A stretch of DNA of 57,136 nucleotides from Lachnospiraceae bacterium. GTDB lineage: Bacteria; Bacillota; Clostridia; Lachnospirales; Lachnospiraceae. The stretch's first letter is position 1. Every line of letters begins with the position of its first letter. Below are positions 13,450 through 18,764 of the stretch, one piece after another. The notes beneath the pieces are model-generated. The model did not search any database. It saw only the letters and a list, made by a program, of their open reading frames with translations, and was not told the DNA's origin. A program made the translations under genes and the position numbers. Location: NCBI GenBank assembly GCA_017416465.1, contig JAFQCK010000011.1:1-57136 (forward strand), given 5' to 3'.

Positions 13450-14107
13450 TGATTGGTTAAAGCCATTAGAACCTGAATTTAAGAAAGAGTACTATAGAGA
13501 ATTGTTTTATAAAGTAAAAGATGAATATTCAAAGTATCCTGTATATCCAAATGCAGATGATATTTTTAATGCATTTCATCTTACACCTTTTTCTAAAGTT
13601 AAGGTAGTGGTAATTGGACAGGACCCTTATCATGAACCTGGACAGGCTCATGGACTTTCTTTTTCAGTAAAACCGGGAATTGATATTCCACCGTCTCTTG
13701 TAAATATTTATAAAGAATTACATGATGACGTAGGAATTAAGATTCCTAATAATGGATATTTAGAAAAATGGGCAAAAGAAGGAGTATTGTTATTAAATAC
13801 AATTCTTACTGTAAGAGCACATCAGGCAATGTCGCACAGTAGCTTTGGTTGGCAGAAATTTACAGATGCTGCAATTAAAGCATTAAATGAAGAAAACAGA
13901 CCGATTGTGTTTATGCTTTGGGGTAAGCCGGCAGGACAGAAAGAACCAATGCTTACCAATCCTAATCATCTTATATTAAAAGCTCCGCATCCAAGTCCGT
14001 TATCAGCTTATAGAGGCTTTTTTGGTTGTAAGCACTTTAGTAAAGCGAATGAATTTTTGGTTACACATGGAGAAAAGCCTATTAATTGGCAGATAGAAGA
14101 TATATAA
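13433..14107 (+). CDS. ung: Uracil-DNA glycosylase, family 1
   Basis: The enzyme removes uracil from DNA to start base-excision repair. The 224-residue protein has the water-activating loop [18 protein letters not shown], the MLWGKPA strand and the minor-groove loop [13 protein letters not shown] with the catalytic His. Length and motifs are those of a full family-1 UNG. Its ATG lies inside the end of hisF. It is the last gene before a long two-way terminator carrying a repeat in its loop. Confidence 0.96.
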
Positions 14108-14114
14108 TTTGAAT

Positions 14115-14252
14115 AAAAAATCCATATATATTTATCCACGTCGGGACGTTCTCGCTTAGCATTCACCGTAGCGGATACTAAGCTCGGTTGCACCTCGCTA
14201 AGTACCGACGGCTCATGATACCCGTCCTAGGATAAATATATATGGATTTTTT
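14115..14252 (+). repeat. Terminator hairpin with ~85-bp repeat in its loop, copy 1
   Basis: A perfect 23-bp inverted repeat (14115-14137 with 14230-14252) begins with six A and ends with six T, so it can act as an intrinsic terminator in either direction. Its loop, about 14139-14222, is the same sequence as the loop of copy 2 in opposite orientation, roughly 80% identical by eye. Exact shared blocks include CGCTTAGCAT (14153-14162) and ACCTCGCTAAGTACC (14192-14206). The loop is far richer in G+C than its surroundings. Confidence 0.8.
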
Positions 14253-14372
14253 GCATTTCAAATAATAAAGGGATTTTATGGAAAAAGGTGTTATGTTAGA
14301 AATAGAAATATTTTGGGTATTTTTTTGGGGGAATTTAAACAATAAATAATTATATTTTTGAAGTTTATATAT

Positions 14373-14509
14373 AAAAAAAATCCTAATAATTATTTTAAGG
14401 AAGGTATCAGGAACCGTTGGTACTTAGCGAGGTTTTTCACGAACTTAGTACCATTACGGTGGATGCTAAGCGCAAGCGTCCTGACGGAAAAATTATTAGG
14501 ATTTTTTTT
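14373..14509 (-). repeat. Terminator hairpin with ~85-bp repeat in its loop, copy 2
   Basis: A perfect 19-bp inverted repeat (14373-14391 with 14491-14509), eight A at the start and eight T at the end, unlike copy 1 in arm sequence. The loop (about 14400-14486) is the reverse complement of the copy 1 loop; shared blocks lie at 14419-14433 and 14463-14472. It ends 20 bases from the stop of the convergent activase-like gene. The 120 bases between the two copies hold nothing I recognise. Confidence 0.8.
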
Positions 14510-14528
14510 GAAAAATATTTTTATATAA

Positions 14529-17500
14529 TTATTTGTTGTTTAAATTCTTTTGTGCTGTTGAAAGCATAAGTTTAATTCGATTTAACTGATTTACTTCACT
14601 TGCACCCGGGTCATAGTCAACTGCTACGATATTTGCCTCAGGATGACGTCTCCTTAGTTCTTTAATTACACCTTTACCAACGATATGGTTTGGAAGGCAG
14701 GCGAATGGCTGTGCACATACAATGTTTGGGACACCACTATGTATAAGTTCAAGCATTTCTCCGGTAAGGAACCAACCTTCTCCAGTCTGGTTTCCGATAG
14801 AAGTAATAGGTTCAGCATATTTAGCTAAGTCTTCAATATGAGCAGGTGGAATAAAATGTTCGCTCTTTTCTAATTCATCTGATAATACTTTCCTGAATTT
14901 TTCTATAAACCAAATACCGAGATTTGACATAGTTGCATTTTTTTTGCTTGAACCTAAATGTTCAGCTTTGAAATTAGTATTATAGAATGAATATAAGAAG
15001 AAGTCTAAAAGGTCAGGCATTACAGCTTCTGCACCTTCCTGTTCAAGTAATTCTACCAAATGATTATTAGCAGCAGGAAGGAACTTAACTAATATTTCTC
15101 CAACAATACCAACTCTTGGTTTAATCTCATCAGTAAGTTCAAGTTTATCAAAATCTCTTACAATACCTTTGATGTTTTTCTTGAATTCGCCACTATTGAT
15201 ACCAGGCTTTGAAATAGATTTCATACAAATATCTTTCCATTTTTCATATAAAGCGTTAGCAGAACCTTTAACTTTCTCATATGGTCTTGTTCTATATAAT
15301 ACTCTCATAAAGCAATCGCCGTATACGATTCCCTGTAATAATTTGTTAACAAGACTAAGAGAAATCTTGAATCCTGAATTTTTTTCTATACCCTGTACAC
15401 TTAATGAAATTACAGGAACATGTGAAAGCCCTGCTTTTTCTAAAGCACGTCTGATAAATCCTATATAGTTACTTGCTCTGCAACCTCCTCCGGTTTGAGT
15501 GATAATGACAGCAGTTCTGTTTAAATCATATTTTCCGGATAATAATGCGTCCATAAGTTGTCCTATAACAATTAAAGAAGGATAGCATGCATCATTATTA
15601 ACATATTTAAGTCCTACATCAACAGCTTTTTTATCATCTCTGTTCATGACTTCAAGTTTATATCCTGCTGATTTAAATGCAGGTTCAAGGAAGTCGAAAT
15701 GAATAGGAGACATCTGAGGGCAGAGAATAGTATATTCCTTTTTCATCTCTTTAGTAAATTCTACTCTGTTGATATTAGAAGGTTTAATTGTTCTTTCTGT
15801 CTTTTGATTCTCTCTAACTCTTATAGCTGAAAGGAGAGAACGTATTCTGATTCTTGCAGCACCTAAGTTATTCACTTCATCAATTTTAAGAACTGTATAT
15901 ATTTTACCGGAATTAGTTAATATATCGCTGACCTGATCAGTTGTTACTGCATCGAGACCACAACCAAATGAATTAAGCTGAATTAAATCCAAATCCTCAC
16001 GAGTTTTAACGAAATTAGCGGCTTTAAATAATCTTGAATGATACATCCACTGATCCATTACTATAAGAGGTCTTTCGACTTCTGCGAGATGTGAAATCGA
16101 ATCCTCAGTTAGTACGGCAATGCCGTATGAATTAATGAGTTCAGGGATACCATGATTGATTTCAGGGTCGACATGATAAGGTCTACCTGCAAGGACAATA
16201 CCACGTTTGTTGTTGTCCTTCATAAACTGTAAGACTTCTTCACCCTTTTTCATAATGTCATTTCTAACATTTTCCATTTCAGTCCAGCCTGCAATTACTG
16301 CATCACTTACTTCATTTTCAGGAATATCAAGTTCTTTCGAAAATACTTTTACAAGCTGTTTCTTTAATACATCCAAATTAGTCATAGCCATAAATGGATT
16401 CATAAATTTAATTTCACCATTTACAATTTCTTCTACATTGTTCTTAATGTTTTCGGCATAAGAAGTAACTATTGGACAGTTGTAGTGATTATTGGCATCA
16501 GGAATTTCATTTCTTTCGTATGGAATACAAGGATAGAAAATAAATTTTATCCCTTGCTTAATAAGCCATGTAACGTGACCATGAGCTAATTTTGCCGGAT
16601 AACATTCTGATTCACTTGGAATCGACTCTATACCAAGTTCGTAAATTTTTCTGTTAGAATTAGGAGAAAGAACTACGTTATATCCTAATTTTTTGAAAAA
16701 TACTGCCCAAAATGGATAGTTTTCATACATATTAAGAACTCTTGGAATACCAACGGTACCTCTAGGAGCCTCGTCTGATGTAAGAGATTCGTAATTAAAT
16801 AATCTTTTTAATTTATATTCAAATAGGTTTGGAATGTTTTCTTTGTTTTTTGTTTTTCCAACACCTTTTTCACATCTGTTACCAGTGATAAATTGTCGAC
16901 CACCTGAAAATTTATTAATTGTAAGAAGACAACTGTTTGTACAACCTTTACATCTTGCCATAGAAGTAGAGTATTGAAGTTTATTAATTTTATCAATTGA
17001 AAGCATTGTGGTTTCTTTTGATTCATCATATCTTTCACGAGCAACTAAAGCAGCACCAAAAGCACCCATTATACCTGCAATATCAGGTCGTACGGCATTA
17101 CAGCCTGAAATCTTTTCAAAACTTCTAAGTACAGCATTGTTGTAGAAAGTACCACCCTGAACAACAACCTTTTCACCAAGGTCCTTAGGGTCAGTGATTT
17201 TAATAACTTTATATAATGCATTTTTGATAACTGAGTAAGCTAAACCGGCAGAAATATCTGAAACTTCAGAGCCTTCTTTTTGAGCTTGTTTAACATTTGA
17301 ATTCATAAATACGGTACAACGAGTACCTAAATCTACAGGATTTTTTGCAAATAAAGCTTCATTTGCGAAATCTATAACACTGTAATTAAGTGATTTTGCA
17401 AATGTTTCTATGAATGAACCGCATCCTGATGAACATGCTTCATTTAACTGAACGCTGTCAACAGTTTTGTTCTTGATTTTAATACATTTCATATCCTGAC

Positions 17501-18764
17501 CACCAATGTCAAGGATACAGTCAACTTCAGGTTCAAAGAATGAAGCAGCATAGTAGTGTGAAACAGTTTCAACTTCGCCTTCGTCAAGCATTAAAGCAGC
17601 TTTTATTAATGCTTCACCATAACCTGTTGAGCACGAGTAAACAATTCTTGCACTATCAGGAATAATTTCATATATTTCTTTAATTGCACGAATAGTAGTA
17701 GCAAGCGGACTACCATTATTATTGCTATAGAATGAGTAAAGTAAAGTTCCGTCTTCACCTACAAGGGCAACCTTTGTAGTAGTAGAACCTGCATCAATTC
17801 CTAAGAAACAGTCACCTTCATAGTCCTTTAAGTCGGCAGAAGAAACCTTATTCTCATTATGTCTGTTGATGAATTCGTCATATTCCTCCTGAGAAGCAAA
17901 TAAAGGCTCCATTCTTTTTATTTCGAATTCCATCTTTATTCCGGTAGATAATCTTTCAATCATATCTGAAAGAGAAGTAATACAATCATCTTTACGGTTA
18001 AGGGCTGCACCTGTAGCTGCAAAAAGATGCGAATGGTCAGGTGCAATGATTTGTTCATCTGTAAGGTTAAGTGTTCGGATAAATGCGTTTCTAAGTTCCG
18101 GTAGGAAATGAAGTGGTCCTCCTAAGAAAGCAATGTTTCCACGAATTGGTTTGCCACAAGCAAGACCACTGATTGTCTGGTTAACAACTGCCTGGAAAAT
18201 AGAAGCAGAAAGGTCTTCCTTTGTTGCTCCTTCATTAATTAAAGGTTGAATATCTGTTTTGGCAAAAACACCACATCTTGCAGCAATTGGATAAATCGCC
18301 TTGTAATTTTTGGCATACTCATTAAGACCGGAAGCATCTGTTTGTAATAAAGAAGCCATCTGGTCGATAAAAGAACCTGTACCACCGGCACAGATACCGT
18401 TCATTCTCTGCTCAATTCCACCTGTAAAATAAATAATTTTAGCATCTTCACCACCAAGCTCAATAGCAACATCAGTGTGAGGTGCGTAATCACTGAGTGC
18501 TGTAGATACAGCAACAACTTCTTGCACAAATGGAACATCAAGATGTTTAGATAGTGTAAGACCACCTGAACCTGTTATTACAGGATTAAGGTCAATTTCA
18601 CCTAGTAAATCTTTAGCTTTCTTTAACAACAATGCAAGAGTTTCCTGGATGTTTGCATAATGACGCTCATAATCCGAAAATAAAATCTTATTCGTAGAAT
18701 CAAGAATAGCAATTTTTACAGTTGTTGAACCTATGTCAATTCCTAATGAATAGTTATTTTTCAT
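14529..18764 (-). CDS. Giant acyl-CoA dehydratase activase-like protein (two ASKHA domains + DUF2229 + D-subunit-like part)
   Basis: A 1411-residue cytoplasmic protein. Two BadF/BadG/HgdC-type ATPase domains stand in tandem: the first from residue ~5 ([38 protein letters not shown]), the second from ~320 ([37 protein letters not shown]). The Cys in each GxGSF region is the usual [4Fe-4S] ligand. A DUF2229 domain follows ([19 protein letters not shown], then [14 protein letters not shown]), and the last ~400 residues resemble 2-hydroxyacyl-CoA dehydratase subunits ([26 protein letters not shown]). Small activases use ATP to push one electron into a dehydratase; for this large fused class the partner is not established. 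No dehydratase subunit genes are nearby. Transcribed toward ung and ended by the repeat-bearing terminator. Confidence 0.88.

Follow-up and report, generated by a model that had tools for sequence, protein, structure and literature searches.

A dispersed family of hairpin elements with a conserved tip and variable arms in Lachnospiraceae

Two hairpins in the window (the whole 57,136-nucleotide stretch of DNA analysed here) are members of a large, dispersed family of hairpins in Lachnospiraceae gut bacteria, a family that is apparently undescribed so far. The reading that we regard as best, and as probably correct, is that its members are small, rarely moving hairpin elements with a tip under selection, an ‘inside-out’ REPIN. 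The window would thereby hold an inverted pair of a Lachnospiraceae-wide, non-coding hairpin element of ~130-260 bp per copy, whose conserved tip of ~91 nt (cap hairpin, GNRA hairpin and closing stem) would be borne on long pairing arms of free sequence.

The inverted pair in the window

The two ~92-nt copies lie in opposite orientation between ung, in which Pfam finds a UDG domain, and a convergent gene at 14529-18764 that we take to be activase-like, keeping the name given in the original prediction. The latter is a single ORF of 1411 aa, with nothing matched by Pfam in its C-terminal 394 aa. The features below are given with the functional strand of each copy, strand B, and with scores from two covariance models, R1 (built from six sequences) and R2 (built from 62).

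14115-14252, minus strand (functional strand B = minus): copy 1, whole inner hairpin with perfect 23-bp arms; core 93.5 bits by R1, 69.6 bits by R2
14115-14137: copy 1 arm, first side, pairing perfectly with 14230-14252
14230-14252: copy 1 arm, second side, pairing perfectly with 14115-14137
14137-14228, minus strand: copy 1 core, predicted three-way-junction tip (models R1/R2)
14172-14207, minus strand: copy 1 cap hairpin, CGGTACTTAGCGAGG..CGAGCTTAGTATCCG, with a U.U mismatch and tandem G.A (consensus fold)
14146-14156, minus strand: copy 1 GNRA-hairpin position, AGCGAGAACGT, with one mispair (helix 4, paired in 99.2% of cells in the 62-sequence alignment)
14253-14372: spacer of the inverted pair, of minus-then-plus polarity as in the other tallied inverted pairs
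14373-14509, plus strand (functional strand B = plus): copy 2, whole inner hairpin with 22-nt arms and one mismatch; 91.5 bits by R1, 78.7 bits by R2
14373-14394: copy 2 arm, first side, pairing with 14488-14509
14488-14509: copy 2 arm, second side, pairing with 14373-14394
14397-14488, plus strand: copy 2 core (models R1/R2)
14418-14453, plus strand: copy 2 cap hairpin (by position in the sequence)
14469-14479, plus strand: copy 2 GNRA hairpin, AGC-GCAA-GCGT (by position in the sequence)
14331-14355: copy 2 outer arm, first side, 25 nt, 96% complementary to 14523-14547
14523-14547: copy 2 outer arm, second side, 25 nt, partner of 14331-14355

The original prediction described perfect but unrelated stems of 23 and 19 bp around one shared loop in opposite orientations. 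The first stem is as described, and the perfect 19 bp of the second are confirmed as the base of the 22-nt, one-mismatch stem of copy 2, which also has the outer 25-nt arm pair. The stems are better called diverged than unrelated, because both start with A6-8 TCC and finish with GGA T6-8. The shared loop is real: 74 of 97 aligned columns are identical, and the alignment scores 48 against a maximum of 14.5 over 500 dinucleotide shuffles. Both exact blocks named there, CGCTTAGCAT and ACCTCGCTAAGTACC, occur once per strand within 14000-14600. The internal pairs proposed earlier (CGTCGG/CCGACG and GCTTAG/CTAAGC) are present as words, yet the pairs of the covariation-supported fold are different ones.

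Family spread and the fold of the core

BLAST found four copies in the source genome and matches in four of 60 genomes, the source genome included. At the loci of the other three (L006, L008, L007 and L010) the same core lies within long stems, taking a modified, repeated form in the genome G019. At L007 (1307-1719) and L010 (G019), 60-bp tandem units stand to the left of one cap and 74-bp units to its right, seemingly as a giant nested hairpin; each right-hand 74-bp unit in G019 contains a GNRA hairpin, as if the structure had grown by repeated modules. BOX elements are modular, boxA-(boxB)n-boxC, and the G019 array is reminiscent of them by description only.

With R1 the source genome yielded 20 copies, and of 397 genomes from the same family 193 were positive at E<=0.01, or 154 at E<=1e-5 by our own count; at most 10 candidates were scored per genome in this survey, so that its copy numbers are lower bounds, and its E-values are rough. 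Across a draw of the class, R2 was positive in 11 of 391 genomes at E<=1e-5, and all 11 belong to the same family. When R2 was applied at E<=1e-4 to seven genomes made up of one or two contigs, scoring 150 candidates per genome, the copy numbers were 38, 16, 6, 5, 3, 0 and 0. Most copies in the 38-copy genome (G210) are single, and the two zero-copy genomes have weak R1 matches (E 0.001-0.002).

A consensus pattern matched at least 120 stretches and, separately, one viral contig. Among the matches listed, most of the 80 titles name Lachnospiraceae or its genera, and the remaining titles read bacterium, Eubacteriales, Clostridiales, Clostridiaceae or Clostridium, with one MAG labelled Bacteroides. 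A first pattern, taken from the source-genome sequence, had no match in viral or genome contigs, and searches of plasmids, phages and E. coli, each with one query of 91 or 93 nt, found none.

The original prediction knew of no family to which the loop belonged, and this multi-copy element indeed has no significant Rfam match. Rfam 15 returned nothing on the window at gathering score; sub-threshold hits to SpF36, SAM-I/IV and NsiR1 (E 1.6-3.6) touch the two hairpins. On 20 loci, none of the nine Rfam hits at E<=0.5 lay over a core. Elsewhere on such stretches, a ZMP-ZTP riboswitch exceeds the gathering score at L013 (2435-2569, source genome), where purine-synthesis-like genes are seen by eye, and a group II intron match does so at L264 (1707-1786), 114 bp from the core copy at 1501-1593. 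Our literature search found no description of the element. It may be contained, nameless, in a set of 3161 candidate structured RNAs from human microbiomes, of which 250 are palindromic (PMC8040213).

T-runs within 60 nt 3′ on strand B accompany 8 of 20 copies in the source genome, against 1 of 20 controls, while copies in other genomes are at control level (7/72 vs 6/72). A T-run directly 3′ of the stem, as expected of an intrinsic terminator, is a feature of part of the source copies only. Chance, or a simple duplication of bidirectional terminators, is very improbable: the window copies do both show an A-run and a T-run at the foot of the stem, and the genes on either side of them converge, but the loop similarity is far above shuffles, the element occurs family-wide, and most copies have no T-run nearby. 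As a general account, this explanation is refuted.

On strand B the core comprises a cap hairpin that contains tandem G.A pairs and a U.U mismatch, a lower stem, a short GNRA hairpin and a closing stem around them. Covariation supports the folding of this ~91-nt core into a three-way junction on one strand. In a six-sequence MAFFT alignment (A2), with the structure set by hand, 12 of 27 pairs changed on both sides and 82.7% of cells are paired, against 73.2% in shuffles. In the 62-sequence alignment, fitted to the model, 25 of 27 pairs changed on both sides (358 such cells vs 97 shuffled) and 88.3% of cells are paired (68.2% in shuffles). The GNRA-loop hairpin varies among GCGAAAGC, GCGCAAGC, GTGCAAAC, GCGGGAGC and GCGAGAGC. 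At L150, L168 and L170 the cap hairpin alone, ACTTRGYGAGGTNYTTTCGARCYTAGT, forms tandem short hairpins from which the rest of the core is absent; the spacing at L170 is 101 bp.

Such a fold could belong to a family of small RNA genes or to a cis-acting mRNA element, with a transcribed B strand that works as RNA. The GNRA hairpin, tandem G.A, U.U mismatch and strong covariation speak for this, as do the slow evolution of the core (below) and the G.U pairs of its helices, which number 40 to 18 A.C over 59 distinct, though related, rows. When core is set against arms, the Fisher p for G.U versus A.C is 0.05, and this weak preference leaves action as RNA and action as DNA unseparated. Several observations point the other way. 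Strand B has no sense preference relative to codirectional neighbours (16 sense and 18 antisense for the 50 named copies; 21 and 41, an antisense lean, for the other set, of 92 copies), genomes hold up to 38 copies, and no neighbour gene recurs: no Pfam family was found in more than two of the 66 neighbours scanned (of 69 ORFs). The arms, moreover, have no wobble preference (25 to 26). We therefore hold an RNA role of this kind to be possible but rather unlikely. Nothing clear emerged with respect to replication strand as judged by GC skew (26 to 24 and 38 to 54).

Arms, site history and movement

We measured the arms of 92 distinct copies, drawn from sets of 56 and 40 with four in common. By a flank-only score, 91 of the 92 exceed the 95th percentile of a control set of 184 mispaired flank pairs, whose maximum is itself surpassed by 86; the sole exception is L071, whose left arm appears deleted. 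The original prediction had raised the idea of a structure for which any closing stem would do, and this describes the element well, since 91 of 92 copies sit between self-complementary arms. The aligned arms contain 3509 Watson-Crick pairs, 95 G.T, 94 A.C and 233 other pairs, and 204 gaps. Isolated mispairs, with four pairs on each side, comprise 25 G.T, 26 A.C and 21 others. In a stem working as RNA, G.T should be the favoured mispair on the strand concerned, so constraint on the arms acts at the DNA level, or else they serve in both directions.

Within one genome, arms are often recognisably related and show compensating changes (by eye, in the second subfamily of the source genome and in G299, G380 and G401), although arms of same-genome copies can also look unrelated (L185, L202). 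A query with a G299 arm gave nine hits at five places, all nine at copies with a core; a 10-base pattern for source-genome arms was unspecific (31 matches vs 47 for the reversed control). The centre is conserved family-wide, and the ends differ between genomes and even inside G299. The arm sequence is free so long as the arms pair, and the tip is conserved.

The complementarity of the arms may be kept by template switching in DNA, with one arm copied onto the other, with or without selection for pairing; we infer this for the arms because they show no preference for G.T over A.C. Template switching has been described as a way to create and mend stems (PMC8794818), and it fits the arm data.

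At a few sites the history of the element can be followed. The ung neighbourhood in eight genomes of the same genus contains no core, and most of these sites have a core-less long-stem terminator (by eye). Also downstream of ung, the long stem in L103 of the same genus encloses a structured loop of another kind, ~70 nt in length, which may represent a second family of structured caps, and L110 has a short terminator-like hairpin repeated head to tail several times (both by eye). At a first site in G238, beside an aminotransferase-like gene (by eye), G797 and G643 have a shorter, core-less intergenic stretch, and G797 has one at a second site; G763 was left out at the first site, as its two flanking genes do not lie next to each other. 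Inverted repeats in the element-free sister stretches of the two sites are within the shuffle range. That ungapped score is a poor detector, its best hit in the element-bearing G238 stretch lying elsewhere and below the shuffle maximum, and since it missed the element, the comparison is carried by the fold z-score: -0.6, -0.9 and -1.8 for the three element-free stretches, against -7.7 for the G238 element-bearing stretch.

The original prediction had proposed an element that enters the loops of existing terminators and had suggested comparing orthologous sites that lack it. In this version the ~90-nt core alone would be mobile, entering the loops of existing hairpins such as terminators. All but one of the 92 copies do lie within a stem, the window arms have an A-run and a T-run, and unrelated-looking arms can share a genome. 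Loop entry may also apply to the window pair in particular, because the source copies have an excess of T-runs and the ung/activase site of sister species is occupied by long-stem terminators that lack a core (by eye). Nevertheless, every G299 arm match falls at a cored copy, copies within one genome have related arms (by eye), T-runs are not enriched in other genomes, and neither of the two element-free sister sites has an inverted repeat above shuffles or an unusual fold. On balance we consider entry of the core alone unlikely.

The element is present at orthologous sites, and its core changes slowly there. With at most 11 copies listed per genome, nine of 11 G238 copies have an orthologous counterpart in G602. 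The nine cores differ at 21 of 840 positions, and the flanks at 57 of 359 (1-20 nt), 75 of 336 (21-40 nt), 96 of 652 (41-80 nt) and, partly coding, 254 of 2114 (81-200 nt). Core and 1-40 nt flank (132/695) are clearly separated (Fisher 3e-28), though the low core rate may be exaggerated because copies were drawn from the best-scoring in both species. The same locus in L275 and L282 has 9 of 93 core positions changed, the most for any of the nine; its arms differ between the two species and are self-complementary in each (by eye).

Under our preferred reading of small, rarely moving hairpins, it would be the entire hairpin that reaches an intergenic site, in rare events, after which purifying selection would hold the tip while arms and flanks drift. 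The arms would serve to clamp or extrude the tip for a putative protein that binds it as ssDNA, a cruciform or RNA. In the two sets of copies, 8 of 50 and 15 of 92 overlap an ORF of 80 aa or more that may be spurious, so that an intergenic location is not established for these. Single copies exist besides inverted pairs. A hand tally of close pairs, with a cut of ~1.2 kb, gave 22 minus-then-plus (the window pair among them), none plus-then-minus and six on the same strand; it leaves out an overlapping reverse match (L035), an interrupted pair (L218) and the tandem cap-only loci L168 and L170. In the L218 case, at ~1730-2000, another palindromic element, AGAGCGTGTTTGAAAAA..TTTTTCAAACACGCTCT, breaks up the 3′ strand of the second copy of the inverted pair. 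Between the inverted pairs at L198 and L185 lie a seemingly chromosomal gene and a 78-aa ORF, respectively, and we recognised no transposase there by eye.

Target-site duplications, which the original prediction had suggested looking for, can be clearly recognised in a small number of copies: the score cut is passed by 5 of 92, against 0.65% of 920 controls, and in L030 and L089, which belong to these five, the duplication does not line up with the arm ends. Two perfect 8-bp duplications, TAATAATC and TTTTCCAT, stand at arm ends in G299, where several copies end in GTAACAG..CTGTTAC or nearly so. GTAA ends and 8-bp duplications are typical of the IS66 family. The copies might accordingly be ordinary MITEs, non-autonomous derivatives of an insertion sequence with 8-bp target duplications, and the core an incidental cargo. 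This seems doubtful to us, given that clear duplications are missing in most copies, that the core is conserved at orthologous sites, and that variable ends around a conserved centre are the reverse of a MITE. As for the mover, the Y1 transposase (PF01797, E<=1e-5) is absent from five of ten copy-rich genomes (G380, G092, G147, G089, G252), and one is present in each of the other five. This absence rules out RAYT/Y1 as the mover; movement of the hairpins may instead depend on a putative enzyme acting in trans.

Relation to known repeats and significance

The family resembles REP-BIME and REPIN sequences, which are likewise dispersed extragenic palindromes with inverted doublets, compensatory changes in the paired part and predicted folding as ssDNA or mRNA (PMC3116915, PMC3733652). 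Inverted doublets are found in our family too, with 22 pairs in one polarity and none in the other. REP sequences have an unpaired GTAG or CGTC tag at one end. In our family, CGTC/GTCC motifs seem, by eye, to recur both outside the inner stem and on the 3′ side of the GNRA hairpin. In REPINs, however, it is the ends that are conserved; the spacer between them is less so, and compensatory changes are seen in its hairpin (PMC3116915). Here, by contrast, conservation lies in the tip and variation in the arms. The core, moreover, is a predicted three-way junction of ~91 nt rather than 20-40 bp, and half of the ten copy-rich genomes lack the Y1 transposase that goes with REPIN/RAYT systems. The main text of PMC3733652 nowhere mentions Firmicutes, Clostridi- or Lachnospir-.

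The BOX, RUP and SPRITE repeats of Streptococcus pneumoniae are also small, structured, interspersed and slow-moving repeats of a Firmicute, and their authors read them as parasitic (PMC3049150). Compared by description only, our family differs in its hosts and in a tip that evolves slowly at orthologous sites. Rho-independent terminators share with the window copies a long stem with an A-run and a T-run, but here the loop is structured and 85-92 nt long, and other genomes show no T-run enrichment.

ERIC/IRU repeats differ from the present family in that their overall sequence is conserved. These enterobacterial small mobile repeats are otherwise similar in being intergenic, ~100-170 bp long and likened to MITEs (PMC2759123, PMC2229807).

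We put forward, more tentatively, and as something conceivable rather than probable, that the family represents a new inside-out class: a selected three-way-junction tip on arms rewritten by template switching, read as extruded DNA or as RNA by a putative dedicated protein and kept at orthologous intergenic sites across Lachnospiraceae.

Depending on the E-value cut, 154 or 193 of the 397 genomes sampled from a major family of gut bacteria (roughly 39-49%) thus carry a structured element for which Rfam 15 has no match. With cores conserved across species on arms that can differ at the same locus, it offers a natural test bed for the upkeep of palindromes in DNA. If the tip binds a protein, it would belong to a chromosome-wide system of the Lachnospiraceae that has so far not been looked for.
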